Of a DNA stretch of 64,000 nt, positions 760 to 50,354 are shown in pieces. Location: assembly GCF_000765235.1 (NCBI RefSeq), contig NZ_JPJG01000033.1, positions 1 to 64,000 of the forward strand, read 5' to 3'. A model generated the notes under the pieces. The model was not told the DNA's origin. It made no database searches and saw only the letters and a list, made by a program, of their open reading frames with translations. The position numbers and the translations under genes are program-made. Numbering within the stretch: position 1 is the first letter of the stretch; every line of letters begins with the position of its first letter. The stretch is from Oscillibacter sp. ER4. Its GTDB lineage: Bacteria; Bacillota; Clostridia; Oscillospirales; Oscillospiraceae.

Positions 760-924
760 AATGGGAATCAAAAGCTGGTGCATGGCTACGGGAACAACGA
801 ATTAAGGCGGGGCAAGACGGACCGAAAGGATGCCGTAAAGCTGGCAAACTATGGCCTTGACCGCTGGCTTACTTTGCCGAGATATGTTCCGGAGGAAGAT
901 AAGCTAAAACCTCTCTTTCACTGA
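760..924 (+). pseudogene. IS110-family transposase remnant
   Basis: The frame encodes GNNELRRGKTDRKDAVKLA, then NYGLDRWLTLPRYVPEED before a stop. This matches the conserved N-terminal segment of IS110-type DEDD transposases, in which a KTD(K/R)KDA motif follows the first catalytic Asp region. The upstream part of the domain and everything downstream, including the C-terminal transposase_20 domain, are missing. It is the only convincing protein-coding signal on the plus strand of the window. It records past transposition next to the fused adhesin/ubiquitin locus. Confidence 0.7.
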
Positions 925-969: not shown

Positions 970-2598
970 TCAATATGTTTCCGAACGAGTTCCAAACGTG
1001 ACGGAGCTTTTATAAAGATTGTAGAAATATGACGAGTAATTATCTTTTTCGGAGAAGCTGATGCTAAATGTCCCATTTGAATACTTTAGCGTTGTATTGT
1101 TATCCAAAGAATAGCTTGTTGAAATTCCATTTACCTTTTCAAAAGCAAACTGCTTAGTTGTTGTAGTAGGATTGCACAGTGAGCTAAGAGATGAATAATC
1201 AGTAAATCGCTCAAAAGTGACAGTTCCCTCAATCGTAAAGGTGGCATCGTTATTCATACGGCATTTAATCGTTATAGATTGTCCTGGGAGAACCGTATCA
1301 TAGTACCATGAATCCCAACTACCATCTCGCTTGTAGACATTTCTTGTTTCAATATAGTTATACGATGCAGTCCATTTTCCACAAGCATTAACCAATGCTT
1401 TGTGTGATTCCAGCATCTCCAATCTTCCCTTGACCGAAATCCCGTTGTAACTATAATCAGTAGGAAGTTTTAAGAGTATCGCTTTAGCCTCATTCAAAAA
1501 GCCATTCTTTAGCTTATCTTCTGCCGTCATCAAATTGCTTGCATTCACCTTGTCTGCAGCATCTTTATAATTTCCCGCAGCAGTATAGTACTTAATTGCA
1601 TCGGAATAGCTCTTATTTTTAAACCTTTCATCTCCCAAAAGGTAATTTGCCTCTTGCAATCTAATCGAACCGTCCTCAATATCCTTCGCTTTAGTAAAGC
1701 AAGTTATTGCATCTGAATACTTCTTGTCATTCAGATTTTTTCTACCTGTTGCATATTCTTTGTACGCTATAGACGAATCAAAACCGTCAGCATTTTCAAA
1801 CATCGTGATTGCTGTATCGAAGTCCTCCGCTGCAACTAATTCTTTTCCATAGCCAAAGCATGCTTCTTTAATTTTTTCACTTGAATCCTTATAATCAACA
1901 AGTGTTTCAAACTTTGCAACAGCAGCCTCATATTCACCAGCGGCCAACGCCTTCATCGCTGCGTTATATGTAACCGCCGGAATGATAACCTTAATCAGCA
2001 GCACAACAATTGCGGTAGCAGCGATAAGAGAACTGAAAATAATGATTCCTGTTTTTTGGGCTTTTCTCCTTTGCTTATCGCAATACTCTTTGCAAACGCT
2101 ATATTTTTGTTCAGACTCCTTATAGTTTCCAAATCCTGCGAAATCTTTCTCTAACTCTTTATACAGCGATTTATTTTCGCTTGCCTTTTCAAATTTTTGG
2201 CATGCGTCTTGATATTCCAGTTCGAGGAGTTCTGCTTTGCAGCTCTCTAACAAAGCCGGAGCGTCGCTATAATTGCCGAGCGTCTGGAGAATAGCAATAA
2301 TTTCTTTCAAATTTTTACTATCATGTTCCCCAGAGATCTTATTCTTCACAACTTGATAATCTTTCTGTTGCTTTGTATGTTGAGGCTCTACAACTTGTCG
2401 ATAACCGCCATTTGTCTGCTGCGATGCAAAAGCCGTTCCAGATAGTGGTGTACCGCATTTGTAGCAAAACGAAGAATCATCCGGATTCTCAACCCCGCAA
2501 TTAGGGCAGAATTTTTTCGCCTCCACCAGTTTTGTGCCACATGATGTGCAGAAGGAAATACCCGCCGGCATCTCTTTCCCGCAATTTGTACACTTCAT
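970..2598 (-). CDS. Zinc-ribbon membrane protein with TPR-like repeats
   Basis: 542 residues from the start MKCTNCGKEM. Two zinc ribbons stand at the N terminus (CTNCG...CTSCG, then CPNCG...CYKCG). After about 150 charged residues comes one membrane helix (IIIFSSLIAATAIVVLLIKV). A region of repeated YxxAxxxFxxAxxYKDA units resembling TPR/SEL1 helices follows, then a beta-rich C-terminal tail. Such proteins are common and uncharacterised in gut Firmicutes, and I do not assign a function. The gene is clearly AT-richer than the adhesin upstream. Its start lies 98 bases inside the thiF-like frame, and only AAAGG close to the ATG resembles a ribosome site, so a recent junction at the start is likely. 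Confidence 0.8.
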   Translation of the reverse strand: MKCTNCGKEMPAGISFCTSCGTKLVEAKKFCPNCGVENPDDSSFCYKCGTPLSGTAFASQQTNGGYRQVVEPQHTKQQKDYQVVKNKISGEHDSKNLKEIIAILQTLGNYSDAPALLESCKAELLELEYQDACQKFEKASENKSLYKELEKDFAGFGNYKESEQKYSVCKEYCDKQRRKAQKTGIIIFSSLIAATAIVVLLIKVIIPAVTYNAAMKALAAGEYEAAVAKFETLVDYKDSSEKIKEACFGYGKELVAAEDFDTAITMFENADGFDSSIAYKEYATGRKNLNDKKYSDAITCFTKAKDIEDGSIRLQEANYLLGDERFKNKSYSDAIKYYTAAGNYKDAADKVNASNLMTAEDKLKNGFLNEAKAILLKLPTDYSYNGISVKGRLEMLESHKALVNACGKWTASYNYIETRNVYKRDGSWDSWYYDTVLPGQSITIKCRMNNDATFTIEGTVTFERFTDYSSLSSLCNPTTTTKQFAFEKVNGISTSYSLDNNTTLKYSNGTFSISFSEKDNYSSYFYNLYKSSVTFGTRSETY

Positions 2599-3328
2599 AT
2601 CCTTTGCCAGCGAGTGTAGGAAGATTCCGATCCGCATGGAGCAGTTTCAACATTTCCTGCACTTGAATGCCAGCAATAACAGACGAAGATGTTGGCGTAG
2701 TTGGGATTTTCCCCTCGGCCATTTGCTCGTGCGTCAGAAGGGCACAGGATTTACGCTTGTTAATGAGCCGCCAGTCCATCTCTGTCATGGTGCATTCATA
2801 GCAAGCTCCCTTACCCGGAACAAACACTCTTGCAAAGCCATTCAGCGCTTCAATTGCCCCATCGATCCACGGGCGGTTCACCTTATAACAGGACTGGTTG
2901 ATTGCAAGACGAGCCTCTCGGTTGTCAAGGCCACCAAGCACAACATTCATCCGGCGAAAGACACCCAAGCCAACATCGTCAATGATATTAGCGATAAACG
3001 CTTTTGCTTTGACATCCGGATTGATTTCCATTGCCCGCTCCGCAGCAACCTCGGCTTTGTAACGACCGACATCTCTTGCACGATAGAGAATGGACCGGGT
3101 AAGGTTCGTGCTTTCAATGGCATCCATATCATAGATAAGGATGCGGCCAATTCCGAGAAGTGTCAGGTTTTTAATCAACTCATTTCCGATTGCGCCTGCG
3201 CCTACAACCATAATCGTAGCATTTTTCAGCCGGTCTTGATCCCACCACGGAATCAAGCGAAGCCGACTGTAACGATCTTCTTCGAAGTCGGAGCTTTGAA
3301 ATTCAAGAGTATTTGCGCTATCCTCCAT
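2501..3328 (-). CDS. ThiF/E1-like adenylyltransferase, C terminus replaced
   Basis: 275 residues. It has the ATP-binding glycine motif VVGAGAIGNELIKNL, the acidic loop YDMDAIESTNLTRS, LGGLDNREAR, the IDGAIEALNGFARVF strand and a CYEC motif, all standard for E1/MoeB/ThiF enzymes that adenylate the C-terminal glycine of ubiquitin-like proteins. The ATG overlaps the stop of the preceding gene (TGATG), as in ubiquitin-E1 operons. The family-like sequence stops around residue 245 (LAGKG); after that the frame reads out of phase through the zinc-ribbon gene, so the natural end is probably lost. No E2 or JAB partner is present. It may be a relic or a partly active enzyme. Confidence 0.85.
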   Translation of the reverse strand: MEDSANTLEFQSSDFEEDRYSRLRLIPWWDQDRLKNATIMVVGAGAIGNELIKNLTLLGIGRILIYDMDAIESTNLTRSILYRARDVGRYKAEVAAERAMEINPDVKAKAFIANIIDDVGLGVFRRMNVVLGGLDNREARLAINQSCYKVNRPWIDGAIEALNGFARVFVPGKGACYECTMTEMDWRLINKRKSCALLTHEQMAEGKIPTTPTSSSVIAGIQVQEMLKLLHADRNLPTLAGKGYEVYKLRERDAGGYFLLHIMWHKTGGGEKILP

Positions 3329-3450
3329 CAAACTGCACCACCCGCCGTAATCTCTGGCTGCAGACGAAGTACATCGCCATCCTTAATGCCTGCCTCTGCG
3401 AGCGTCTGCGATTCAAGAAGTTGCCTGCCAGTCACCTTATGGATAAACTT
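3328..3450 (-). pseudogene. C-terminal remnant of YukD/EsaB-like ubiquitin fold protein
   Basis: The last 40 residues of the adhesin frame read KFIHKVTGRQLLESQTLAE and then AGIKDGDVLRLQPEITAGG plus AV. The pattern (x)LxxxxTLxEAGIxDGDxLRLxPEIxAGG is the C-terminal half of bacterial YukD-like ubiquitin folds, whose genes lie directly before E1/ThiF genes, as here. The N-terminal half is gone. I treat it as a fused gene fragment. The family match is by motif recognition only. Confidence 0.7.
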
Positions 3451-6400
3451 ATTCATCGAGTTGTAATCTTCCGAGGTCTTGACGATCTGGATCTGACCGG
3501 TGATGGGCGTATTCTTCCACTCAACTTCCGTGGTTTCGCCGCTGCGGACATAAACCGTCTTTTTCTGCGTGTCGGGAATATATCCCTCATTTTCCAATTC
3601 ACGCAGATAGTAGCGGCCAGCGGTCAGGTTTTCAAAACGGACATAACCGCGGTCATCGCTGGTTTCCTGCGCAATGGGATTATTTCCACTGTCATAGAGA
3701 ATGAAGGATACGCCGTAGATGCCCTCGCCGGTGGTCGAATCGACCTTGTGGATCAGGATACCGGAGATGGCTTTGTTGGTCACCGTTTTGGTTGTGGTTT
3801 TGCCATCTTCCACGGCGAAATAGATGAGGGTATTGTCCAGCTGGAAGCCCTTGCCTGCCTCGGTTTCCACGGCATAGTAGCTGCCGCTTTCCAGCGGCAC
3901 ATACACGCGGCCGTCCGTTCCGGTGGTGACGGTGTCCACCAGACCGCCATCGCTGACACGGCGGATCTCGAAGGTGGTGTTGGGGATGCGCTGGGTCTTG
4001 TCCGCCGCATTCACTTTCACCAGCTCCAGCCCACCGATGGGAGCATTATAAAAATAGAGGGACTGCGTGTCGTTGGGGTTGACCACCACGGTCTGCGTGC
4101 GGGTGTTCTCGTCGATGGTGTAACCGGAGATGGATTTTTCCTCTGTCACCACCAGTGTGCCGGTGACGCCCTTGAGAATGATCTGCCCGTTTTCGTCGGT
4201 ATAGTACAGACCGTTGGAGCTGATTTTTCCGTTTTCGTCGGGGACGAACTCGCCGGTAGCCGTAGTGATCTTGAAGGTAACGCCCTCCAGCGGCGTCTTG
4301 CGGTCCAGAGAGGACAGCTTGTTGATGATGAGCGCGCCCTGTCGCTCATTCCAGAAGGTCATGCGCTGGGGAGACTGGCTCTGGTCGATCTTGATGCTCT
4401 GCGGCGTCCCATCCAACACGAATCCATCCACCGTCTTGACTTCCTTGGCAGTGATCGTCATGCCGTCGGCCAGCCCCTCAATAACGATCTGGCCTGCGGA
4501 GTCGGTGGTATAGTAGCCGTTGTTGGGGCCGACTACCGCGCCGGAGGAGTCCGTCACAAGGAACTGTACCCCGGCAAGCGGTTCATTTTTCGTGCCGGAA
4601 ATGTATTTCTGGAGAATCAACGTTGTAGTGGGTTTGTTGTAAAAGGTCAGCGTCTGCGTGTCGTTGGGATTGACGACCACCGTCTGTGTGCGGGTCGCTT
4701 CGTCAATGGTGAAGCCCGGAATCGTCTTGGTTTCCGTTGCTACCACGGTGCCGACGACGCCGGAGATGCGGATCTCACCAGATTTATTGGTGTAATAAAT
4801 GCCGTTGCTGGACAGTTCGCCGTTGGCGTCGGGAACGAAGCTGCCATCCGCGTAGGTGATCTTAAACTCTATGCCCTCCAGCGGCTCCCCGTTGGGGCCG
4901 GAGCTGACCTTGCGGATGATGAGATTTCCGGCAGGCTGGTTCAGAAACTGCAAATGCGCCGTTTCGCCGCTCTTGATGAGCGCGTGCTGGGGGCTGTCAT
5001 CCAGCAGGTAGCCCGTTTTTGCCCGGACTTCACGGGCAATGACCGTCATGCCGGGTTCCAGGCCATCCACCAGAATTTCGCCCGCGGCATTGGTGGTGAA
5101 GCGGCCGTTGTCATTGCCGAGATAATGGCCGCTGCTGTCGGTCAAAAGAAACTCTACGCCGGAGAGCGGTTCGTGCTTGCTGTCATCGCTCAGTTTGGTA
5201 ATTAAGAGCGATCCCAGAGGAGCATTGCCGAAGCGGAGCGTCACCACATCCTGATCCTCGCCGGAGATCCACACCGTCTGGGGTTCGCGGTCGATGATGT
5301 GATTTCCGTCGCTTTCGAGTTCCTGACAGACATAAGTGCCCTTTTTAAGGTTTGTCACGGTGAAGGCTCCGTTGGGGCCGGTCACATAGGACCCGATGAC
5401 CGTACCGCCAGTACCGGAAGTGCCGCCGCCTAAATATCGCAGTTCAAAGCGGCAGCCCTCCAGTCCCTTTCCGGTTTTGGCGTCATATTTGTACACGACG
5501 AGGGCGCTGTGAGGAACATTGTCCACGGTCACGGTCTTGGAGGTGTTGGCTTCCAGATAGAACTCGGTCGCGCCGCTGCCCTGAATGCCGAAGCCCTTGG
5601 GAGCGGACTCCTCCACCAGCTTGTACCAGCCACGGTTTACATCGGTGAGCGTGATTTTACCATCAGAGGCCGTTGTGAACACGCCGAGGTCGTTGATCTC
5701 GCCGGTGGTGGTATTGTCCGAACCGTAATAGATATGGAATTTGGCATTGGAGAGAGGATCGCCGGTGATGCTGTTGCGCTTCAGGAGCGTCAGGGAGGGT
5801 TTGACCGCGTTGAAGAAGGTCACCGTGCGGGTGCAGCCTGCTTCCAGATAGACCTCCTGCGGGATCTCAGAGAGAATGACATGGGAAGGCACATTTTTCT
5901 CCGTGACGCGATAGCTGCCCGCGGGAATGGAATCGAGGAAGATGCGCCCTGCGCTGTCCGTCGTGGCGCTGGTGGAGTAGCTGCCGTCGATCTGCTCAAT
6001 GAGATAGGTAACGCCCTCGATAGGCTCCCCGGTGGCGATGTTTTTCTTCAAAATTTCCAGACCGGGCTTCTGGTAATCCTGAAAGCGCACCTCGCTGGTC
6101 TTGCCGGGTCGGAGCGCTACGGTCTGCTCCGTATTGCTCACAATGTACGGCTCGGGAACGGATTCCTCCCGCACCACATAGACGCCTGCAGGAAGTGCCG
6201 AAAGCGTTGCCGAACCGTCCGAGCCGGTGGTGACGGAGGTGGAATAGCTGCCGGTAACGGACTTAATGGACAGCACCGTGCCGGGGATCGGCGCGCCGGT
6301 CTGCGCATCGGTCTTGATGATCTTCATGCTGGGCAGTTCATAGTTCGTAGCGGTAACGGTATACTGCTTGTTCCCGTCCGTGGTGTCCACATAGACGCTG

Positions 6401-7380
6401 ATAGGCGTGGAGTCTGCACAGTACCCTGCTGGCGCTTCGGTTTCCACGAAGGACCACAATCCTTCGGTGACGTCCTTTACCTCGATCATACCGCCATTTT
6501 TGGTCACATCGCTGCCGACAATCTGACCGTCACGGTAAATATTGAATTTTGCACCGTCCAGCCCGCGGGTCGTTCCGGCAGCCACCTTTTGCAAGGTAAT
6601 GTCCGCATCTCCCGCGGGAGGCGTGGGCTTATCCGGCTCAGGTGCGTCATTTACCACCAGCTTGCGGGGCGCATAGTAATTGAAGAAGCTCTGACGGCCC
6701 TTGACGCTGGACTTTGCATAGACCGCCCATTTTGCGGCTTCATCTTCTACCACAGAGGCGATGATACCCTTGGCGGCGTAATCTGCAATCTGCTTCTGGA
6801 ACTCCGCATCCTCCTTGGCCTTTTCTTTCAACATCCAATCGATGTAGCCAAGATAGGTTTCATAGGTATCGGCGTTCGCGTAGCCGCCGCCATCGATGTC
6901 GCCGTCTCCCTCGCCCTTGAAGGTCTGATGATCCCACACATAGGTCTGTGCGGCCATAAACAGGCTGCCGGGAACATCTCCCTTATAGTCCACAATGAAT
7001 GTCATCATCCACTTGAAGTTTTCAAGCTGCTGGGCGTCCAGCTCACCCATGCCGCTCTGCGCCAGCGCTGTTTTCAGGACGGTGTCCGCGTCTGCACCGG
7101 TGGCGGAAGTGTAGGTGTAGCTGTTCAGGAAACTGGCAGTGCCCCAGCGGTAGCCATAGCCGCGATCCAGGCAGTAAAGCATTTTACCTGCTGCCATCGG
7201 GGGCTTGTAGCTGTACGGTGTCCCGTCATGGAGCAGTCTCGTTGTCCAGTAGTTGGTATTGCTGGTAGGCTTGATACCGGTTCCGGTACTGGAAGCGGCA
7301 AGCGCGGAAGTCGGAAGCAGCGTCAACAGCGTCATAATGACAAGAAGCGCTGACATGATCCTTGTTTTCCATGTTTTCAT
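3328..7380 (-). CDS. Thioester/SpaA (CnaB) repeat surface adhesin, chimeric C terminus
   Basis: 1350 residues, starting at MKTWKTRIMSALL with AAGGAGG seven bases upstream. Order: signal peptide; thioester-type head with the likely bonding pair Cys in LYCLDRG and Gln in AAQTYVW; then 11 CnaB/SpaA beta-domains beginning with units such as MKIIKTDAQTGAPIPG. Domains 7 and 9 are close copies that share TRTQTVVVNPNDTQ. CnaB domains normally form Lys-Asn isopeptide bonds and are anchored through a C-terminal LPXTG signal. Here domain 12 breaks off after QIQIVKTSEDYNSMN, and the last 40 codons are a YukD-like ubiquitin tail. No sorting signal or membrane helix remains, so the product would be secreted rather than anchored. 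It sits with a sortase and a CAP protein, as in ICE cargo. Confidence 0.88.
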   Translation of the reverse strand: MKTWKTRIMSALLVIMTLLTLLPTSALAASSTGTGIKPTSNTNYWTTRLLHDGTPYSYKPPMAAGKMLYCLDRGYGYRWGTASFLNSYTYTSATGADADTVLKTALAQSGMGELDAQQLENFKWMMTFIVDYKGDVPGSLFMAAQTYVWDHQTFKGEGDGDIDGGGYANADTYETYLGYIDWMLKEKAKEDAEFQKQIADYAAKGIIASVVEDEAAKWAVYAKSSVKGRQSFFNYYAPRKLVVNDAPEPDKPTPPAGDADITLQKVAAGTTRGLDGAKFNIYRDGQIVGSDVTKNGGMIEVKDVTEGLWSFVETEAPAGYCADSTPISVYVDTTDGNKQYTVTATNYELPSMKIIKTDAQTGAPIPGTVLSIKSVTGSYSTSVTTGSDGSATLSALPAGVYVVREESVPEPYIVSNTEQTVALRPGKTSEVRFQDYQKPGLEILKKNIATGEPIEGVTYLIEQIDGSYSTSATTDSAGRIFLDSIPAGSYRVTEKNVPSHVILSEIPQEVYLEAGCTRTVTFFNAVKPSLTLLKRNSITGDPLSNAKFHIYYGSDNTTTGEINDLGVFTTASDGKITLTDVNRGWYKLVEESAPKGFGIQGSGATEFYLEANTSKTVTVDNVPHSALVVYKYDAKTGKGLEGCRFELRYLGGGTSGTGGTVIGSYVTGPNGAFTVTNLKKGTYVCQELESDGNHIIDREPQTVWISGEDQDVVTLRFGNAPLGSLLITKLSDDSKHEPLSGVEFLLTDSSGHYLGNDNGRFTTNAAGEILVDGLEPGMTVIAREVRAKTGYLLDDSPQHALIKSGETAHLQFLNQPAGNLIIRKVSSGPNGEPLEGIEFKITYADGSFVPDANGELSSNGIYYTNKSGEIRISGVVGTVVATETKTIPGFTIDEATRTQTVVVNPNDTQTLTFYNKPTTTLILQKYISGTKNEPLAGVQFLVTDSSGAVVGPNNGYYTTDSAGQIVIEGLADGMTITAKEVKTVDGFVLDGTPQSIKIDQSQSPQRMTFWNERQGALIINKLSSLDRKTPLEGVTFKITTATGEFVPDENGKISSNGLYYTDENGQIILKGVTGTLVVTEEKSISGYTIDENTRTQTVVVNPNDTQSLYFYNAPIGGLELVKVNAADKTQRIPNTTFEIRRVSDGGLVDTVTTGTDGRVYVPLESGSYYAVETEAGKGFQLDNTLIYFAVEDGKTTTKTVTNKAISGILIHKVDSTTGEGIYGVSFILYDSGNNPIAQETSDDRGYVRFENLTAGRYYLRELENEGYIPDTQKKTVYVRSGETTEVEWKNTPITGQIQIVKTSEDYNSMNKFIHKVTGRQLLESQTLAEAGIKDGDVLRLQPEITAGGAV

Positions 7381-7403
7381 GGTTGTTTCCTCCTTATACT
7401 CAG

Positions 7404-7444
7404 ATTTAGAAACGAAGAAGCAGACCGATTTCTCGGTCTGCTTC
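7404..7444 (-). terminator. Hairpin between CAP protein and adhesin genes
   Basis: GAAGCAGACCGA pairs perfectly with TCGGTCTGCTTC (7417-7444) around a 4-base loop. In the minus direction it is followed by TTCGTTTCT, a weak T-tract. It lies just after the stop of the CAP gene and before the adhesin ribosome site, so it probably attenuates read-through rather than stopping it fully. Confidence 0.6.
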
Positions 7445-7463
7445 GGGTTGAGATGATGTGATT

Positions 7464-8258
7464 TTATTTGGCTGCCGGAGTGTCTACCCAGCCTACGGTA
7501 TAGCCGTTCCATAGGAAGAGTTGGACGCAGTACCAGCATGCATCGCCGTTGTCATTGACGCCTCTGGCAAGTCCCACACCGGTTTCAGCGTAATTCTTTT
7601 CGAGAAGATTATCACGGTGCCCACCGGAGAGATTCCATGACCATACGGCGACCTCAGATACCGATTTGCCCTGCAGAGCCCAATCCGCGATGCGGTGGAT
7701 GTTTTCGCCTACATACGGGCAGTCCGTAACGGTGGTATTTTTCCGTCCATCTGGTCTGGTGTGGGAGTAGGCTCCGCTGGCAGCCATTTCCTCTGCCCGC
7801 ACCTGCGCCGCCTGCATGAGTTTGGCATTGACAGTCAGCGCAGAAATTCCTTGCTCTCTGCGGATGGCATTGGTGCGGTCAACGATCTCCTGTTTCATGG
7901 CATCCACATCGGCATCGCTGGCGGGGACTGCGGGTTCTGGCTGCGGAGCGGGTTTGATGACTTCGTCCTTTGCCGGTTCTTCGCCGGTGTAAGGTTTTCC
8001 GCTCTCCACCTGCACACAGCCGTTCTCGCTATCCCAATAAACCTCGAAACCAACAGCCTTGCCGATGTCCCGGAGCCGCACATAGTTGCTGCCGCCGATG
8101 GTATAGGCGGTCATGTGGGTTTCCTGTCCATCCACAAGGATGCGGTTGGTGGAAAGCGTCGCTTTCAGCGATTCCACCGCCTGCGCCGCAGGAGCACTCA
8201 GTGAAAGCCCCAGCGCAAGGCCGCAGAGGACGAGTCCGGTATTCTTCAATCTGTTCAT
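7464..8258 (-). CDS. Secreted CAP/SCP-domain protein with stalk domain
   Basis: 264 residues. A signal peptide (ending near SAPAAQA) is followed by a copper-amine-oxidase-N-like stalk domain (ILVDGQETHMTAYTIGGSNY, VRLRDIGKAVGF), a proline-rich linker, then a CAP domain (residues about 120-260). The CAP domain has the typical RxEEMAASGAYSHTRPDG, GENIH and SGGHRDNLLEKNY motifs. CAP proteins of Firmicutes are extracellular and often cell-wall associated; their activity is usually unknown. It is preceded by AATGGAGGC and sits between the sortase and adhesin genes, which points to a surface module for contact with partner or host cells. Confidence 0.9.
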   Translation of the reverse strand: MNRLKNTGLVLCGLALGLSLSAPAAQAVESLKATLSTNRILVDGQETHMTAYTIGGSNYVRLRDIGKAVGFEVYWDSENGCVQVESGKPYTGEEPAKDEVIKPAPQPEPAVPASDADVDAMKQEIVDRTNAIRREQGISALTVNAKLMQAAQVRAEEMAASGAYSHTRPDGRKNTTVTDCPYVGENIHRIADWALQGKSVSEVAVWSWNLSGGHRDNLLEKNYAETGVGLARGVNDNGDACWYCVQLFLWNGYTVGWVDTPAAK

Positions 8259-8369
8259 CGTTCTGCCTCCATTCTAAATGTGTATGTGGAAATCTTCCTC
8301 GCAGCTTCACCATATCACAGGCGATGGGCAGAAGTCGAACAGAACCGATCCGGCAAAACGGAGAAAAAA

Positions 8370-9149
8370 TCAAGTTCCCACTGCGGTGACGCACCAGCGC
8401 TGGTCCCGCTGATTGCGGACGCAGGTGTAAAGCGTGAGCATATTCTCGCCGGAGTCCGCAAGACCGCTGCGGTCTGTCTCGCTGACCTTGCTGACGTCCG
8501 TCACCTTGTAGGTGCGGGTACCCAGCTTGGTCGTCAGGGTGATCTTGTCCCCGATGTTCAGCGTGTGGATCTGCCCGAAGTAGCTGTTGGCGCCGCGGTT
8601 GTGGGCGGCGAGGCAGACATTGCCCTCCCAGATGGAGGTATCTTCAAAATGCCCAACGCCTTTGGCAAGCGTCTTGCTGTCCGTTCCCTGATAAATACGG
8701 ACACTCAGATCCAACGCGGGGATCTCGATCTTGCCGAGGGAACCGTTTTTGTAGTAGAGCTCGCTCGTTACATCCGTGAACAGCACAGAGAGCTGATAGC
8801 CGTTGCCGCTGCTTACCGTACTCCCTGGGGTAACCACATCACCGCTGCCGCTGATCACGGCGCCAGCCGTGGGAAGGGTGCGCGGCGCAAGATTCGGCGT
8901 CAGGTATTCGCCGGTATGGAGCGCATTCATGCTCTCCGAGCCGAAGGCGGGCGGAATAAGGGCTGCGTTCTTGCTCACATCCTCATTGCGCATAGCGCCG
9001 CCATCTGCCGTGTGGATGACCTCGATGGAGGTATTCCTGCCGAAGTCGTAATCATTCGGCGCGTCGATACTGTATTCCAGCGCATACGCCGGAGCTGCCA
9101 AAGCCGCTGTCATGCAAAGGCTCAGGCAAAGGGTAATGATCTTCTTCAT
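8370..9149 (-). CDS. Sortase (class B/D-like) with signal peptide
   Basis: 259 residues: signal peptide (MKKIITLCLSLCMTAALAAP), about 100 linker residues, then a sortase domain. The catalytic triad is visible: His in CLAAHNRG, Cys in LTLYTC, and Arg shortly after in VRNQRDQR. Sortases are membrane transpeptidases that cleave LPXTG-like signals and attach proteins to the wall or to pilus subunits. The ATG overlaps the upstream stop (ATGA), so it is translated with the 306-residue membrane protein. Its expected substrate, the adhesin at 3328-7380, has lost its sorting signal, leaving the enzyme without a visible client in this window. Confidence 0.88.
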   Translation of the reverse strand: MKKIITLCLSLCMTAALAAPAYALEYSIDAPNDYDFGRNTSIEVIHTADGGAMRNEDVSKNAALIPPAFGSESMNALHTGEYLTPNLAPRTLPTAGAVISGSGDVVTPGSTVSSGNGYQLSVLFTDVTSELYYKNGSLGKIEIPALDLSVRIYQGTDSKTLAKGVGHFEDTSIWEGNVCLAAHNRGANSYFGQIHTLNIGDKITLTTKLGTRTYKVTDVSKVSETDRSGLADSGENMLTLYTCVRNQRDQRWCVTAVGT

Positions 9150-10066
9150 TCTTCTGTTTCCTCCTCATCTGCGTTTTCTTTTCTGTGCTTCACCAGCAGC
9201 GCACCGCCGACACCAGCGCCCGCCGCAGCCACGACACCGATGGGGATGAGCACATAGGACCAGCGGAGCGAGGACATTGCGCCGGCAGTTTTCGCAGGCT
9301 CTGCGGGCTGGATGGGTGTTCCCTCAAAGATGGCGACATAGCGGACACGGTTGAGGGCGATCCGGCTGACGGTCCCGGTATAATCTGCCGTGACGGTGTA
9401 GCCCTTGACATAGCTGCTGGTGGCACTGCCGGTGTAGGTGGCGACGGCGGTATAGCGGTCTGCCACGGCATAACCGTCCATGTTGGCGGTATTGTCGGTC
9501 TGCCACTGGATGTCCGAGAGCGTCAGGGTCCTGCCGCCGTCCTCAATGCTCTTGGGGATGTACTGTGTATCCTGCTCGGCAAGATTGGGATAGCTGCGCT
9601 TGACGGAAAGCTGCTTTGTAGAACTGCCATAGCCGGACGGCTCGACCTGCACGGTGTCAAGTCGGAGTGTCAGGGTTCCCATGAGCCCGTCGTCCGTGAT
9701 GAACTCACGCTCCTGCGGCAGCAGCGCCAGCACGGATTCCATATCCTTTTTGGCGCTCTCGATAGAAACATGCTCCGTATGCTGGCGGCTCTCGTTTTCC
9801 GGAAGTTCCTGCTTCAGAAGGTCCGTCAGGGTGTACTGAAAGCCGTCCTGCTGGAAATTCGAGCGGGGAATGCCCGCAGGATCGTCTTCCGGACTCAGAT
9901 CATAGATTTTCTTCAGTTCTGTGCCATCGTCGTTTTGGACGATGGCGGTGGGATAGCAGACCTTGGCGTCCGGTACCGCGGGTTCAAAGTCCGCCGCCAG
10001 CGCAGTGGGCGTCAGTGCCAAAGTCAGGCACAACGCCGCAGCGCAGAGAGATAGCATTCGTTTCAT
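9146..10066 (-). CDS. Signal-peptide protein with C-terminal membrane anchor
   Basis: 306 residues. An N-terminal signal peptide ends near ALAA. About 230 extracellular, beta-rich residues follow, then one membrane helix near the C terminus (YVLIPIGVVAAAGAGVGGAL) and a short charged tail (KHRKENADEEETEE). I do not recognise a named domain. Proteins of this layout are encoded directly before the sortase in related ICE cargo blocks. It overlaps both neighbours by four bases, so the three genes from 10692 to 8370 form one translationally coupled unit. Confidence 0.75.
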   Translation of the reverse strand: MKRMLSLCAAALCLTLALTPTALAADFEPAVPDAKVCYPTAIVQNDDGTELKKIYDLSPEDDPAGIPRSNFQQDGFQYTLTDLLKQELPENESRQHTEHVSIESAKKDMESVLALLPQEREFITDDGLMGTLTLRLDTVQVEPSGYGSSTKQLSVKRSYPNLAEQDTQYIPKSIEDGGRTLTLSDIQWQTDNTANMDGYAVADRYTAVATYTGSATSSYVKGYTVTADYTGTVSRIALNRVRYVAIFEGTPIQPAEPAKTAGAMSSLRWSYVLIPIGVVAAAGAGVGGALLVKHRKENADEEETEE

Positions 10067-10692
10067 TTTGTGTTCCTCTTTTCTTTATTTTTATAGTGAT
10101 TTTTCGTCTGCTCCAGCAGAAGGTCATATTCCCAAGGCTCCAGCTCAAAGGAGAGGTAGGCACCGTCTTTCGACATACCGTCTACCCGGTAGCTCAGCAC
10201 AAGTGGAAGCTGCCGCTGCTTTTTCACGTCCTGAGGTGAGATCCAACCAACGCCGCCCACAAAAACGGAACGGATGGCGGAATCGTAGTTTTCTTCATAA
10301 CCCTGCCAGAGAAGCGCCTCCCGCAAATCTCCCCGTAGCTTCCCGCTTTGGGGAACGGGAACCAGACGCTCCGGTTCCAACAGAAATCGGGGATGCAGAG
10401 TTTCCAAGCAAGTATCCAGCGCAACTTTCAGGGCGGCATCTTTTTTCGTCAAACCGCTGCGCCGGTAATCTGCCGCCAGAACGTCCTCACCCTGGGCATC
10501 GCCGGGGAAAAGGCGTACACAGCGGATGAGTTCATAAGCGTGGGCGTCATCCGCCAGGCCAAGGACGCGGCCCCCGTTCATAGGGAGCGCCCGGTAATGG
10601 TCGATGGCCTCCGCCAGTGCGGAGAACTGTCTCACATCCCATCCGGGTCTTCCGGGGCGGAGATCGTCCACGGTGTAATAGGTCATGCACAT
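10063..10692 (-). CDS. ICE-associated hypothetical protein (YodL-like)
   Basis: 209 residues, soluble. The start (TYYTVDDLRPGRPGWDVRQF, then ALAEAIDHYRALP) resembles the YodL-like segment seen in many ICE accessory proteins, in which a short phrase computes a value from row-like input; the match is weak and its role is unknown. The C terminus is charged and ends in KNKEKRNTK. It has a GGAGG site before ATG and overlaps the following gene by four bases. Confidence 0.6.
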   Translation of the reverse strand: MCMTYYTVDDLRPGRPGWDVRQFSALAEAIDHYRALPMNGGRVLGLADDAHAYELIRCVRLFPGDAQGEDVLAADYRRSGLTKKDAALKVALDTCLETLHPRFLLEPERLVPVPQSGKLRGDLREALLWQGYEENYDSAIRSVFVGGVGWISPQDVKKQRQLPLVLSYRVDGMSKDGAYLSFELEPWEYDLLLEQTKNHYKNKEKRNTK

Positions 10693-10705
10693 TCAGACAT
10701 CCTCC

Positions 10706-11437
10706 TCATTTCATATTCATGCCGCCCATCGTGGGCGCGTCGGTCTGCTCCTGCGCTTGAAGCTCTGCCAGCTTTGGCTTTGCCCATTCCGGAAGGAACT
10801 TGTCATCCAGCACACCGATAAACTCGCTGCGGTTCCAGCGTGTCATCTCCCCGTCGCTAAGGCAGGTGCAGCGCACCGAGCGGCCAATGGCGTGAGGCGA
10901 ACAGCCAAAGCCGTCATGGGCATACCAGAGCTGGTTTTCCTGACTCCAGCAGGATTCTTTCAGCGTGTCAGGGCTGAGTACCAGCACCTTGCCGGTATAG
11001 TCCTGCTCGGCGCGGTCACCGACACAATGCTCCGCGCCAAAGAGATTTAACGCCTGCACCGCCTTGCGGTAGAAACTGACGAAGCCATCCAGCACGGCCG
11101 GATGGCTTCGGACAACAAAATCGCTGTTGTGGTTGAGATCTGTGGGAATATATATCTTCTCTGCCCAATGCTTGTTGGCGTAGCTGAAACGCCCATCCCA
11201 CTTGAGCTCATGCAAGGTATTGGCGAGCACCCATGCGGTGCGCTTGTAGCCGTATTCATCCAGCACGGACTTTAAGCAATCTGTCTGAAGGTTCATGCCA
11301 TCAAAGTTCTGGCGGATGGAATCCTCGATAGCGTTACGGCAGGCGATATTTGCCTTGTGGCTCTCCCGCCAAAGGGAAAGTTCATTCCGCTTACGGGCTT
11401 CAGCAGCGGAATACGGGTAGGGATAAGTATTGTTCAT
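10706..11437 (-). CDS. DUF3849 family ICE protein
   Basis: 243 residues from MNNTYPYPYSAAEARKRNEL. The series RESHKANIACRNAIEDSIR, VLANTLHELKWDGRFS and DGFGCSPHAIGRSVRCTCL followed by MTRWNRSEFIGVL is typical of DUF3849 proteins carried by Firmicutes conjugative elements. Function is unknown. The start was chosen at 11437, where GGAGGAGATCTCGGG precedes ATG and the codon overlaps the stop of the gene before it (ATGA). Confidence 0.8.
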   Translation of the reverse strand: MNNTYPYPYSAAEARKRNELSLWRESHKANIACRNAIEDSIRQNFDGMNLQTDCLKSVLDEYGYKRTAWVLANTLHELKWDGRFSYANKHWAEKIYIPTDLNHNSDFVVRSHPAVLDGFVSFYRKAVQALNLFGAEHCVGDRAEQDYTGKVLVLSPDTLKESCWSQENQLWYAHDGFGCSPHAIGRSVRCTCLSDGEMTRWNRSEFIGVLDDKFLPEWAKPKLAELQAQEQTDAPTMGGMNMK

Positions 11438-44171: not shown

Positions 44172-47100
44172 TCAATCCCACCAGAAGTACCAGACGGTGG
44201 ACTGCCACAGTGCATCTGCCAAGGAGCCAATGCTTCCATCCTCATTCTGATCCAGATCCGGGCAGAAGCCATACAGTTCTACCGCCACATCCATGGCCTT
44301 CTCCTTGGGGACGGGGGCCGGAAGCAGGAACTCCAGCTCATCGTGGCTCATGGCGGCAGGAACTGCGCCGTACTGCTCGAACCAGTATTTGGCCGCAGCC
44401 ATCAGGTCCGGTGTGTCGGGGCAGTCGTTCCAGTTTCCAAAGGGCAGGTAGGCGAAGATCTCCCAGGGATTCTTCACCGGGATCTCGGCCAGGATAAGCG
44501 GATAGGTCATCTCCGTATCATCATCCCAGTAGCTGGAGAAGCGGTCGTTTGGTTCTCCGCCTTCCATCTCGCCCAGGATTTCCTCATCCCAGTCCATATC
44601 GTCATCCTCGGCTTCTTCCTTGCGCTGGCCGATCAGTGCCTCCAGGACCGCCTTGCTGTCCTTGACAGGTGCAGACAGTATCTTCTTCCGGTAGTCGGCT
44701 ACCTTGTCCGGGTCGAAAGCATAGTCGTCCTCACCATCACTGTCCGGGTCGGAATTCATAATGAGGCACTCCCACAGGGTTTCGTCATCCGCCTTGATGA
44801 GCACTGGCACAAAGCCTTCTTTGACACTTTCCCGTTTGGCATAGCTGTATGCCGACATGATGGGATCATCGTCCTTCATGGAGGGGAAATAGGTGCATTC
44901 ACAGTCCAGATACTCCATCAACGCCTCAGCCAGTTCGGAGGGTTCCAGCGTGTCCTCGTCGAAGTCCTGTCCCTGCCAGTTGGTGAAGCGTTCCTCGATC
45001 ACCTTTGCCATGGCCTGGTAGTAGTCCTCGTCAAAGGGGATGAACAGCGGGGCCTTAAACTGGAACTCATCGGAGTAATACTTTTCTGGGCCGAGATATT
45101 CCAAGGCATAGTTTTCAATGTCACGAGGGAAATTGGGACTGTCAGGTTCGCCATAGTAGTAAGAAGTAAATGCTCGCCCAATCTTATTGAACATCGGAAC
45201 CATAATCTGCCCGTTCAGTTTGTCCCGAATAAACGCCCGCAGATCCACGCTGGCAGGGTCGGCTTTGACCTGTTTGGCCACTTCGCCGTATTCGTTCAGA
45301 AAGTCCTCGCCCATCAGATCATGCTCTATGCACCAGCGCAGGTAAATGGCAAAGAGGTTATAAGCATTTATGGGGTCAACGGGCAGCCCCTTCTCCTCAA
45401 TACTCTCGATATGATAGGAGGCATCGTCCATCTCACCGTCAAAATCATCATTGGAAAGGGTGCCACGAGTGATGGCATCCTGACGGTCAGGCTCCACCAC
45501 AAAGCTGATGCCGTTCATTTTGTCCAGCAGGGCATCCGCGTCATGGGCCAGCTTATATTCCAATTCATCCCGGTAGAGAGGGATCACCTGATAGAAGTTG
45601 ACCTCCTCGCCACTCGGCAGGATGCAGACCTCGCTGCCATCTTCGGTGTCCTGGGGACCGGTCAGAATGGCGGCGCACAGCTTTGTGCCTTTTGCGAAGT
45701 CCTCCTCATTGTCCATGGTATGGCCGAAGCCCAGCCAGGTATCGCTGGCAATGGGAAGGCGGGCCAGGGTTTTCAGCAGGCGGATGGGCCAGTACCACCG
45801 CTCATTCTTCAAATCCTCGCGCTTCAACTTCCAGTTTCCCGGCAGTGCGATAGCAAGCTCCGCCCGCTCCAGCTTGTATTCGGCCAGTTCCTCCGGCACA
45901 TTCATCCGGTGGGCACCCATGCCCATGGTTACCAGGGTGTAGTAGTCCCGATCCCCAGAGGGCGGCACAACGCAGATGTCCACATGGATGTCCGGGGAAG
46001 ACAGCTCGTGGAACACATTCTCAAACTTGCCGAAATACTGCTGAATGTGAGCCTCGACGGCCTCCATCTCCTCCTCGGTGTAGACCTCGGGAACACCGTT
46101 TTGTTCATCCTCGGCCACTTCACCGTCCGGGTCATCGTCATCATCGTCAGGGTCACCGTCCGATGACGCCCAGGAAATTTTCAGGGTCATCTGATCTTCC
46201 GGCAGACCGACGCCAGGACTGCGGGTGATGGTGTGCTTATCGTCTGCCGCAAAACCGATGGTCTCCCCATCGTGCAGTTCCACATCATTCTCCAGCACAT
46301 AGGACACAAGGCTGGCCAAAAAGTCCCGCAGATCGCTCGGCTTGGCATCGGTGCCCAGCACCTCCATCTCGTCTTTGCCGAACACATCCAGGCCGTAGGT
46401 GTAGCCATTCATGCCATTCTCATCCTGCCAGAGGCCGAACCAGATCCAGTTGAAGATGGGCAGCTCGTCCTCGCTCATCTGCTCGGCAAAGCCCTCATAG
46501 AACCGGGGCTCAAACACCACGCCGCTGGTGTAGATGCCGGTGGCATATTCCTGGCGACAGCAGGCGGCAACCACCTTGGTGAACAGCTTGCCCTTTTCCA
46601 GCAAATTCTCCTCTTTACCCAGCACTGCTACCATCAGGTGGGCACGGTGCTTTTTGGCTACCTTGACCGCATCCTCCCACATATAGTTGTTTTCCGCATT
46701 GCCCTCGGCCTCGCCTCCGGGGATGGGATAGTTATTCAGGCTGACGGCGGCGAGCATATCGCCTACTTCAAACACCAGCGCGTCATCGTCCTTCTCCTCG
46801 CTGGCGTCATATTCATCCACGGCGATGTCCCACTTTTCCTTCATATCCCGGATGAACTGCTCCTTGTCCCATTCTCCCTTGGACAGGAGGACAAAGCCGG
46901 TGAAGACGCCTGTGTGGTCGGTTTCCTCCTCGTCGGCGTCATCCTCAAGATCCTCTACATCTTCATCCGGATCATAGAGGGATTCATGCTCCAGTCCGCG
47001 GATAAATTCCTCAAAGCTGTCTGCCAGATGGGTGATTTTGTAGTCATTTTCCTGATCCACATGGACCACCGCAGGCTCTCCCTGGGGGCCGCAGGCACGG

Positions 47101-50100
47101 TAGTCCAGGAAGATCATATCGTGTCCGGCGCTGGGACAGTCGCAGATGGCCACGCCGATGGCAGGATACTCCCACTCATCGATCATAAACTGACTGCCCA
47201 GCTCTCCACAGAGAGAGCAGCTCTTTTCCCGTCCGATTCCGAAAATGCCGGTGATGGCCACATGGTCCTCTGCCCAACAGGTAGGCTCATCGCAGGGATA
47301 GCAGGTATTCACCGGAATGCCGCCGTTGTGCTGCTTCATCAGCCAGATATAGGCGGCAGGCAGCTTGTAGCCCAGCTCCTCCTCCACGCTGGCGATCAGC
47401 TCATCGGAAGGCGGATCACTGACATACTCTTTCAGTGCATACCAATTATCATCCCAGAAGTTGGTGAGGTCAAAGCCCTCAAAGGGGGTATCACCGGGCA
47501 CGAATTTGGCCTTCTTGTTCCGGCTGCGCCGGCGTTTCCGAATCTCCGCCTTACACTCCTGAATCACCGCCGGGGCATTTTCGTCCTCCGGGTCCAGTTC
47601 TGCCCAACGCCGGGCGTAGGGGATGGCCTTTTCCTCCTGCCCATAGAGATACTGATAGCCATAGGCCATCCGCATATTCCACTCCGCCTTGTCCTGGCCC
47701 TCTTTCCGGACAGACTCCAGCACATCAATGGCTCGGCGCAGGGCCTTGTCCCCCTTGTAACGGGGCGTGCCCTCGTCATGGTCCCCGATGATGGCGTAGT
47801 TCTCCAGTGCACGGGCCAGGGCGTAGGCGGTGCGGTAGTTCCGCCAGTCCTCCGGGATGGCATTCAGTGCCTGGATGCAGCGGGTGTACTCGTCCTCGTC
47901 GTTCCACTGCTCCAGCTGAGCGAAGAATGCTTCGGCGTTCTGTTGGGTATAAGGAATATAGTCCATGCCCGTCAGCGTCTCGTCCAACTCGGGAACCTGA
48001 TCCTCATCGTCCGGTTCCTCCTCGGGCGGCGTTTTCAGATTCACAGTACCTGCTTCTCGACGGAAGGTGTGGAAGCTGGCCCAGGGGATGTCGCTGTCCT
48101 CGAAGAACTCCTTGGCCATCTGGAGCGCCGTTTGGATGTCCCAGGCGATGAAGTCCACATAGCCGCAGAAGAGACCGGTGGCTCCGCCGGTGAGGGTGAG
48201 CACCTCCGGTCCGTCGCCGGTGGTAAATACTTCTTCCAGCTTGTCCCGGAAGTCGAAGATCTTCTGGGTTCCTTCCTCCTCCCGCAGGGTGTCCAGGGGA
48301 TAGCAGAAGAAGCCCGCCACCGCGCCGTCGGCATGGAGTGCGTCCATAAAGTCATTGTCGGCATTCAGATAGCCATTGATGAGCGGCACACAGCAGGTGG
48401 AGCCGGCCATCACATCCAGCCGCCAGTCAGCGTCCGGGTCTTCATTGGGTTTCATTTCGTAGCCAAGATAGCTCTCCAGATAGGCTTCCGGATCGGTGGA
48501 GAGTTCCAGGCCCTGCTCCCGCAGTTTGTCGGGCAGCTGGGACAGGAGGAAGGACGGCTCTGCCTTGGGCTCCTCCAGCACATTGAAGTCATCAATGTAC
48601 CACATGTGGGAGATCTCGCCCAGCACTTGGTCGGTGAGGGTGGTGAGCATCCACCAGACCCGGCCCTCCGCCTCCCGGAGCATGGGAAGCAGCTTTTCGC
48701 AGTAGGCGGAGATGGAGAAGCTGTTTTCACCCTGCTCCTCCAGCCAGATCTGCACATCATCCCCGGAGATGTCCCATCCATCCTCGGTACGCAGACCGAT
48801 GTTCTGGAGGGGCTGACGGCCCACCAGGATGTTCCAGTGCTCCAGCACCTCCTTGGGGGCGTGCTTCTGGAAGTAGATCAGCTCAAACAGCTTGACCTTG
48901 TCACCCTCCGGGGTGAGGATCAACTCATGCTTTTCGCCATTGAAGCCCATCTCGAAGGAGATTTCGTCAAACGCCTGGTTCAAAGCCCCTTCCATTTGGG
49001 CTACGAGTTCGGCGCCGCGGGTGTGATCCTTGTCCTCGTCCATCATCTGGCGCAATTCTGCTTCCATCTCGGCAAAGGTTTCCCACCAGTCCTCCGTCCG
49101 CTCCCGGAAGCACTCCGAGAATTGCGGCAGAGAAATGCCCCTCTTGCACCCGTCGATCAGCTGCATGGTGTCCTCGTCGTCGGGGCGGGCCTCCAATGCC
49201 TTTTCAAAGTAACGAAGAGCCCTGTCCTCCTGATCCAGATAGTAATAGGAATAGCCCATGCGAAAGTTCCAGTAGTAGTCTCCCTCAAAGTATTCCTCAT
49301 GAGGTTTCAAGAGAGCGATGGCCTTTTTGAGCATAGCTCGGCCTTCCGGCGTTCTGTGATCTGCCTCGTTGTTGTACGCCCTTGCAAGCTGGCTGTCCAT
49401 TTCCGGAGTGCGCTCCTCAATACTCTCCAGTGCTTCAATGATCTTGTGATGCTCGTTGTTCTCATGCCACTTCTGGCACTGCTTCAAAATATCCATATCC
49501 GGGTCCTCCTCGTCCTCATCCGGTTTCCAGTCTTTGATCTGCTGGAACACGCCATTTTCATCCCGCTCAAAGGCGCAGGGGGCGGGGGTGTTCAGCAGAG
49601 GGATGATGTCGGGATCGTCGTTGCAGATTGTGTTCAGCTTGTAGATCCCGGCATTGTTGGGGTCGTCCATGTACTCGTCGCTCTCATCGCCGGCGGTGAA
49701 GCGCCAGCCGCTGTCCCAGCCGCTGTCCGGCTCCTCCCGGTAGCAGTAGCCGACCTTGCAGCCCTCCACCGTGATGCGGTTGGTGGCAATGCAGCCATCG
49801 GCACCCTTCCAGTCAGGGAGCAGAGCTTTTACATCCTCCGCCTTCACATGGTAGTCCCGGTTGCGGCCGGCGGCCTCGTACAGCTCCTTCCGCAGTGCCG
49901 CCACATCCCGAGCCATCTCCTGGATCTCCTCGTTGTCCATCATCTCGCTGAGGTCATATTCCATCGGGTTCTGGGCAAAATCCGCCAAGGCCTTGTTCAT
50001 GGCGTCGTGCTCCTCTGGCGTGGCGGTGATGCGGATGCGGCGGGAGGGGGTGTTGTACTCGTCCAGATCGTGGAGGTTCACACTGCCGCTGACGCTGCAC

Positions 50101-50354
50101 TCCAGTAGGATGGCGGCCAGATCGGTGACCACATCAATGGCGAAGTGAAAGTCCATCTCCACGCCATCCGAGTGGGTAAATTCCAGATACTCCACTGTCT
50201 GGCGGAAGTCCCCGTTTTGCTTGTCCAGCCCGATCTTGGCGAAAATTTCGCTGAGTGGGATTTCCTCTTTCCTCTGGTCCTCCAAAAAGGCCACAAGGTT
50301 CAGACTGTCATCGGAACCTCCAATAAACTTACCCCAGTATTTGTTGATATACAT
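44172..50354 (-). CDS. Giant 2060-residue polyimmunity protein
   Basis: One unbroken frame. Approximate layout: unassigned head (1-170); DUF2185 (187-272, GCIATNRITVEGCKVGYCY); TPR-like region (300-405); unassigned 410-800; second TPR-like region (818-931); SUKH domain (950-1130, ELGYKLPAAYIWLMKQHNGG); DUF4261 (1148-1395, NYMWEDAVKVAKKHRAHLMV); suppressor-of-fused domain (1430-1618); DUF7832-like (1645-1760, DDASYHIESIEEKGLPVDPI); acidic C-terminal region to 2060. Several are known immunity domains of polymorphic toxin systems. Proteins with tandem immunity domains (polyimmunity proteins) have been described. This one is exceptionally long. GAGGAGGAG precedes an internal ATG at the SUFU start, but too close to the codon to be a normal site. 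Confidence 0.85.
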   Translation of the reverse strand: MYINKYWGKFIGGSDDSLNLVAFLEDQRKEEIPLSEIFAKIGLDKQNGDFRQTVEYLEFTHSDGVEMDFHFAIDVVTDLAAILLECSVSGSVNLHDLDEYNTPSRRIRITATPEEHDAMNKALADFAQNPMEYDLSEMMDNEEIQEMARDVAALRKELYEAAGRNRDYHVKAEDVKALLPDWKGADGCIATNRITVEGCKVGYCYREEPDSGWDSGWRFTAGDESDEYMDDPNNAGIYKLNTICNDDPDIIPLLNTPAPCAFERDENGVFQQIKDWKPDEDEEDPDMDILKQCQKWHENNEHHKIIEALESIEERTPEMDSQLARAYNNEADHRTPEGRAMLKKAIALLKPHEEYFEGDYYWNFRMGYSYYYLDQEDRALRYFEKALEARPDDEDTMQLIDGCKRGISLPQFSECFRERTEDWWETFAEMEAELRQMMDEDKDHTRGAELVAQMEGALNQAFDEISFEMGFNGEKHELILTPEGDKVKLFELIYFQKHAPKEVLEHWNILVGRQPLQNIGLRTEDGWDISGDDVQIWLEEQGENSFSISAYCEKLLPMLREAEGRVWWMLTTLTDQVLGEISHMWYIDDFNVLEEPKAEPSFLLSQLPDKLREQGLELSTDPEAYLESYLGYEMKPNEDPDADWRLDVMAGSTCCVPLINGYLNADNDFMDALHADGAVAGFFCYPLDTLREEEGTQKIFDFRDKLEEVFTTGDGPEVLTLTGGATGLFCGYVDFIAWDIQTALQMAKEFFEDSDIPWASFHTFRREAGTVNLKTPPEEEPDDEDQVPELDETLTGMDYIPYTQQNAEAFFAQLEQWNDEDEYTRCIQALNAIPEDWRNYRTAYALARALENYAIIGDHDEGTPRYKGDKALRRAIDVLESVRKEGQDKAEWNMRMAYGYQYLYGQEEKAIPYARRWAELDPEDENAPAVIQECKAEIRKRRRSRNKKAKFVPGDTPFEGFDLTNFWDDNWYALKEYVSDPPSDELIASVEEELGYKLPAAYIWLMKQHNGGIPVNTCYPCDEPTCWAEDHVAITGIFGIGREKSCSLCGELGSQFMIDEWEYPAIGVAICDCPSAGHDMIFLDYRACGPQGEPAVVHVDQENDYKITHLADSFEEFIRGLEHESLYDPDEDVEDLEDDADEEETDHTGVFTGFVLLSKGEWDKEQFIRDMKEKWDIAVDEYDASEEKDDDALVFEVGDMLAAVSLNNYPIPGGEAEGNAENNYMWEDAVKVAKKHRAHLMVAVLGKEENLLEKGKLFTKVVAACCRQEYATGIYTSGVVFEPRFYEGFAEQMSEDELPIFNWIWFGLWQDENGMNGYTYGLDVFGKDEMEVLGTDAKPSDLRDFLASLVSYVLENDVELHDGETIGFAADDKHTITRSPGVGLPEDQMTLKISWASSDGDPDDDDDDPDGEVAEDEQNGVPEVYTEEEMEAVEAHIQQYFGKFENVFHELSSPDIHVDICVVPPSGDRDYYTLVTMGMGAHRMNVPEELAEYKLERAELAIALPGNWKLKREDLKNERWYWPIRLLKTLARLPIASDTWLGFGHTMDNEEDFAKGTKLCAAILTGPQDTEDGSEVCILPSGEEVNFYQVIPLYRDELEYKLAHDADALLDKMNGISFVVEPDRQDAITRGTLSNDDFDGEMDDASYHIESIEEKGLPVDPINAYNLFAIYLRWCIEHDLMGEDFLNEYGEVAKQVKADPASVDLRAFIRDKLNGQIMVPMFNKIGRAFTSYYYGEPDSPNFPRDIENYALEYLGPEKYYSDEFQFKAPLFIPFDEDYYQAMAKVIEERFTNWQGQDFDEDTLEPSELAEALMEYLDCECTYFPSMKDDDPIMSAYSYAKRESVKEGFVPVLIKADDETLWECLIMNSDPDSDGEDDYAFDPDKVADYRKKILSAPVKDSKAVLEALIGQRKEEAEDDDMDWDEEILGEMEGGEPNDRFSSYWDDDTEMTYPLILAEIPVKNPWEIFAYLPFGNWNDCPDTPDLMAAAKYWFEQYGAVPAAMSHDELEFLLPAPVPKEKAMDVAVELYGFCPDLDQNEDGSIGSLADALWQSTVWYFWWD

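Follow-up and report, generated by a model that had tools for sequence, protein, structure and literature searches.

The window analysed here, a 64,000-nucleotide stretch of Oscillibacter sp. ER4, carries a single open reading frame in which a surface adhesin continues in frame into the C-terminal part of a YukD-like ubiquitin-like protein (UBL). Comparison with intact relatives of both genes suggests that this fusion is probably real, and that it is an ordinary product of genome decay by deletion. It appears to be accidental, derived from two broken loci on a mobile region, and its significance is low. A preliminary description had proposed that a deletion fused an ICE adhesin with a ubiquitin-like conjugation locus. 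That account fits the data but is incomplete, as there are two joins instead of one, the adjoining E1 gene is also cut, and the locus lacks the E2 and JAB genes.

An adhesin reading frame ending in part of a ubiquitin-like fold

3328 to 7380, minus strand: fused adhesin-UBL open reading frame, open throughout, coding from 7380 to 3331
3453 to 7380, minus strand: adhesin part, with a signal peptide and 11 SpaA/CnaB-type domains, its end cut off at join 1
3450 to 3452, minus strand: join 1, adhesin GATGAAT followed by UBL AAGTTTATCC, placed by setting the parental homologues side by side
3331 to 3450, minus strand: C-terminal part of the UBL plus GAV, residues 53 to 89 of 89 (KFIHKVTG...PEITAG), matching Pfam YukD 49 to 76
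2597 to 3328, minus strand: E1/ThiF-like fragment, the N-terminal ~245 of ~395 residues, linked to the tail by TGATG (ThiF E value, 4.6e-53)
2596 to 2598, minus strand: join 2, E1 GGATATG followed by ATGAAGTGTACAAATTG, with the ATG common to both parents, placed by comparison with the E1 of the intact operon L026
2501 to 2596, minus strand: out-of-frame extension of E1, 31 codons (EVYKLRERD...KILP-stop) through the zinc-ribbon gene, as part of an open reading frame from 2501 to 3331
970 to 2598, minus strand: gene for a 542-aa zinc-ribbon/TPR protein (Pfam double zinc ribbon and TPR)

The adhesin begins with MKTWKTRIMSALLVIMTLLTLLPTSALA, an N terminus assigned by eye as a signal peptide, and contains the motif pair YCL (69) and QTYVW (145), a candidate for the Cys and Gln of a thioester. 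Pfam recognized 11 SpaA/CnaB-type stretches in the fused product and returned no thioester-domain (TED) match for it. An intact homolog in a genome of the same genus (G012, locus L104) is 1,600 aa long, has 12 SpaA stretches, and ends in SKPLPRTGY. Over the 3' region compared, the window copy is 93% identical to it in DNA up to exactly position 3451, and no identity is found past that position. The join cuts the coding region of the 12th domain, so that ~260 aa are lost, including the 12th domain, a further region of ~160 aa, and the LPRTGY sorting motif; the window protein ends instead in PEITAGGAV, without a sortase signal. The loss of the 12th domain and LPXTG signal is therefore as previously proposed. 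The genome that contains the window also encodes a 60% adhesin paralog on contig C45 (L105, G000:C45:88000-104000, at 6169 to 10728), in which an in-frame TGA lies near the N-terminal third, so neither adhesin copy is a complete LPXTG gene in this assembly.

At position 3451 the frame passes from the adhesin into UBL residues 53 to 89, then GAV, then TGATG into the E1 gene. The parents of this join have ~2 bp (AT) in common, and on both sides of the ~855-bp UBL/E1 piece the joins are nonhomologous, with microhomology of 2 to 3 bp. Both joins, the matches on each side of them, and the missing parts can be read directly from the sequence comparisons. The other two sense frames past join 1 reach stops within 0 and 5 codons. 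Given adjacent parts, orientation and frame match by luck about one time in six, so the in-frame state of the fusion is weak evidence of anything.

The UBL match itself is not chance. YukD was matched at aa 1313 to 1340 (profile positions 49 to 76 of 76; E value, 4.8e-5, slightly below Pfam's own cutoff), in agreement with the original assignment of the tail as a C-terminal YukD-like part, and the aligned stretch is 64 to 74% identical to the UBLs of more than 40 genomes. Numbered against 29 aligned intact UBLs, the window protein has lost 52 of 89 residues, with strands 1 and 2 and the helix, and keeps part of strand 3 onward. Join 1 falls inside strand 3 (residues 51 to 56) of the modeled intact fold, which resembles ubiquitin-like structures in the PDB, and with residues 53 to 89 alone remaining, a complete beta-grasp fold is absent from the window. 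In a model whose alignment included intact UBLs, the fused tail was predicted to be disordered, with pLDDT of ~32 to 55 versus 74 to 93 when these residues are modeled as part of the intact UBL, while the CnaB domain ahead of it was modeled confidently (pLDDT, ~93).

A Gly-Gly end had been described for the tail, and as a sign of conjugation it was rejected. The conserved C terminus of these UBLs is PEITAG, with one Gly, and the extensions after it vary among relatives. The window tail keeps this motif with its terminal Gly, and the second G comes from its own variable extension, GAV. In some other operons (L048, L049, L050, L056, and L106/L065), the UBL genes form open reading frames of 338 to 407 aa that continue past PEITAG with a segment of membrane or lipoprotein-like type and an additional domain. 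Because the UBL in those operons is not a free protein, a modifier with such extensions may be membrane tethered or in need of cleavage. The single conserved Gly, after which membrane or lipoprotein segments come in some cases, bears on how UBL modifiers are processed.

A truncated E1 gene and its left flank

As first described, the tail keeps its TGATG overlap with the E1 gene (the E1 ATG is A3328 to G3326), comparable to a TAATG overlap in intact operons. The suggestion that the old operon layout survives on one side of the join holds for this overlap, but what survives is merely the ~855-bp scrap. The E1 fragment is 93% identical to the E1 of L026 over residues 7 to 245, and none of the listed E1 relatives aligns past query residue 248, with matches ending at ~245 to 248. 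In another genome (G196), E1 homology likewise stops at 2596, where in the window E1 abuts the ATG of the zinc-ribbon/TPR gene. No homolog matched the 31-codon extension. Among nine cysteines conserved in 98 to 100% of 64 E1s, the cut protein retains C145, C174, C177, and C193 and lacks the other five (C262, C312, C314, C334, and C337).

Neither an intact E1 of the same family nor the remainder of the cut E1 was found elsewhere in the genome. At the locus, no E2, protease, JAB, or RING-like gene and no intact UBL were found, and the zinc-ribbon/TPR gene directly follows E1. This E1 was present in just 2 of 400 genomes in the family sample, a distribution suggesting that it was probably acquired horizontally; a search of viral contigs returned none. 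UBL operons contain homologs of the zinc-ribbon/TPR protein, encoded ahead of the UBL in L048, L049, and L056 (42 to 49% identity over aa 251 to 542 or the C-terminal part) and downstream, after JAB, in L059 (37 to 55%). The gene is thus probably another member of the old operon, and join 2 is best read as an internal operon deletion, as we infer from these positions.

Two mobile-element pieces lie to the left.

771 to 901, plus strand: internal fragment, 131 bp, of an IS110-family transposase gene, 93% identical to an IS110-type transposase open reading frame on G000:C102
92 to 326, no strand assigned: transposon-like piece, 235 bp, matching part of G000:C106 at 84% identity

The 131-bp fragment matches Pfam DEDD_Tnp_IS110 at an E value of 2.7e-4, below its cutoff, and a 91-bp contig-end repeat is common to other contig ends at 100% identity. 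Because these pieces match the same genome (93%, 84%, and 100%), the scrap is, by sequence, bracketed by host-type DNA. The contig end as a whole (positions 1 to 970) is composed of short IS fragments. Far from the fusion, a very large minus-strand open reading frame (44172 to 50354; 2,060 aa) lies amid many mid-sized acidic proteins, in what looks like a dense island of uncharacterized proteins.

Origin and meaning of the fusion

Adhesins carrying the same tail were sought in partly overlapping samples of 400 genomes from the family and 394 from the order, and by DNA search of 199 relatives, and no such adhesin was found. About 100 adhesin matches in the family and order samples stop at or near join 1, ending at query residues 47 to 53 of 90 apart from two that reach 64 to 65, and UBL matches cover query residues 33 to 88 in separate short open reading frames of 90 to 339 aa. 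With no second case in the sampled genomes, the fusion was rejected as a conserved architecture; by these comparisons it is private to this genome. A plasmid collection searched with the region, and viral contigs searched with degenerate DNA patterns of both joins, returned no match. Intact forms of both parents do exist, the adhesin in the same-genus genome G012 and the UBL-E1-E2/FHA-trypsin-JAB-RING operon in about 50 genomes, including one of the same family (G337, L134). These operons were counted by intact UBL plus E1 in the survey, with full gene order taken from fully read loci. In L026, one gene (9201 to 11099) encodes an E2-like domain fused to a multipass membrane region and, at the C terminus, an FHA domain; it adjoins a trypsin-like protease gene, and this layout recurs in many relatives.

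Several other UBL operons are damaged. L097 (7396 to 8640) contains a truncated relaxase gene, an E1 piece (residues 112 to 226), a protease remnant, and then JAB, with mobilization genes beside them; in L038 (7800 to 7990) the UBL gene has an internal deletion of ~28 codons that breaks its frame, with an intact E1 downstream; L074 has a frameshift and L066 a stop. Because these loci come from metagenome-assembled genomes, faulty assembly could account for some of them. In several genomes of gut Clostridia, nonhomologous deletion seems to have removed YukD-type UBL operons, sometimes beside mobile-element genes.

Decay by deletion is favored by the presence of two separate joins with different partners, by the intact adhesin in the genus and the intact operon in ~50 genomes, by the recurrence of broken UBL operons (L038, L097, L074, and L066), and by the low modeled confidence of the tail relative to its counterpart in the intact UBL. 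In the order and by the mechanism that we infer, a UBL-E1 conjugation operon, apparently acquired horizontally, would have been located close to an integrative element or have moved into it. Illegitimate rearrangements at sites of microhomology would then have fused the ICE adhesin gene, broken within the 12th domain, with the UBL gene at its middle, and would have removed the stretch from mid-E1 through E2, the protease, and JAB to the start of the zinc-ribbon/TPR gene. Translation, if it occurs, would yield an adhesin exported via its signal peptide, with an unfolded ~40-aa tail at its end; without LPXTG it would escape sortase anchoring and be secreted, the tail being inert. Both halves are most likely nonfunctional, because the adhesin has no LPXTG, E1 is five cysteines short, the locus has no E2 or intact UBL, and no intact E1 of this family was found elsewhere in the genome.

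The main competing explanation is that the contig is a chimera, in which UBL-operon DNA from another gut bacterium was attached to the ICE contig during library preparation or metagenome assembly, and the fused gene does not exist. In its favor, the genome is a draft of 130 contigs with the feature 3.4 kb from a contig end, the remainder of E1 is absent from it, and this E1 is nearly absent from the family. G+C content steps at both joins, from 56.5% in the adhesin to ~50% in UBL/E1 and 39% in the zinc-ribbon gene, which fits a mosaic as well as a chimera. However, assembler errors usually occur at shared k-mers, and neither join is spanned by a repeat of the genome; the assembly would have to be wrong twice, at points 855 bp apart; the DNA to the left of the scrap has matches in this genome's own IS elements; the first 8 kb contain no run of N; and the missing adhesin end, sought on the other contigs, is represented by nothing but a 55% paralog on C45. 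No disabling mutations besides the cuts were seen in the scrap, so either the event was recent or the contig is chimeric. Taken together, a chimera is unlikely, although it deserves real weight.

Readings that grant the fusion a function fare much worse. Retention of the truncated adhesin as a secreted variant with a neutral tail, the join having been selected for freeing it from the wall, is improbable. No stop interrupts the 11-domain part, which is intact, and since the C45 copy has an in-frame TGA, the window copy is the longer uninterrupted frame, but the join cuts through a domain-coding region and there is no sign of selection. More doubtful still is the idea that the fusion works at the surface, its ubiquitin-like tail serving in attachment or E1 recognition. 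The fusion is in frame and keeps both its PEITAG end and its overlap with the E1 reading frame. Against this, most of the UBL is gone, the tail is modeled as disordered, E1 has lost five of nine invariant cysteines with no intact E1 of its family found elsewhere in the genome, and no sampled relative keeps the fusion; moreover, the adhesin is an exported protein and E1 is not. The novelty implied by a ubiquitin-like tail on a surface adhesin is not supported, as the tail amounts to less than half a fold and the genome yielded no matching machinery to use it. Functional novelty has a very low probability, and co-option of a translated, exported product together with the E1 fragment, as an adhesin with a functional ubiquitin-derived C-terminal peptide, can be considered negligible.

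Comparison with known systems

The adhesin part resembles the LPXTG multi-CnaB (SpaA-type) adhesin of integrative elements (G012, L104) in signal peptide type, in domain order, and in the CAP-domain gene adjoining both copies, with the DNA identity given above up to the join. Unlike that protein, it ends in 37 UBL residues and GAV. The scrap resembles operons encoding a YukD-like UBL, E1, E2-FHA, trypsin-like protease, JAB, and RING-like zinc-finger protein (L026, L134, L106, and ~50 others), in which the UBL stop likewise overlaps the E1 start and whose best relatives match the E1 part at 93% and the tail at 64 to 74%, whereas the window retains only UBL residues 53 to 89 and E1 residues 1 to 245.

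There is also a likeness to the Bil/Bub pathways. The E1 matches PADLOC E1-E2 models, the E1 of an intact relative weakly matches BilD, and that relative's operon likewise has E1, E2-like, and JAB proteins. In contrast to those pathways, E1 and E2-FHA are separate proteins, the UBL is YukD-like, the scores are weak only, and the remnant has no E2 or JAB. The closest parallels to the event itself are the remnants in L097 and L038. Their breakpoints and partners differ from those in the window and involve no adhesin, but in both a YukD-like UBL operon has been cut by nonhomologous joins as it has here, in L097 near mobilization genes.
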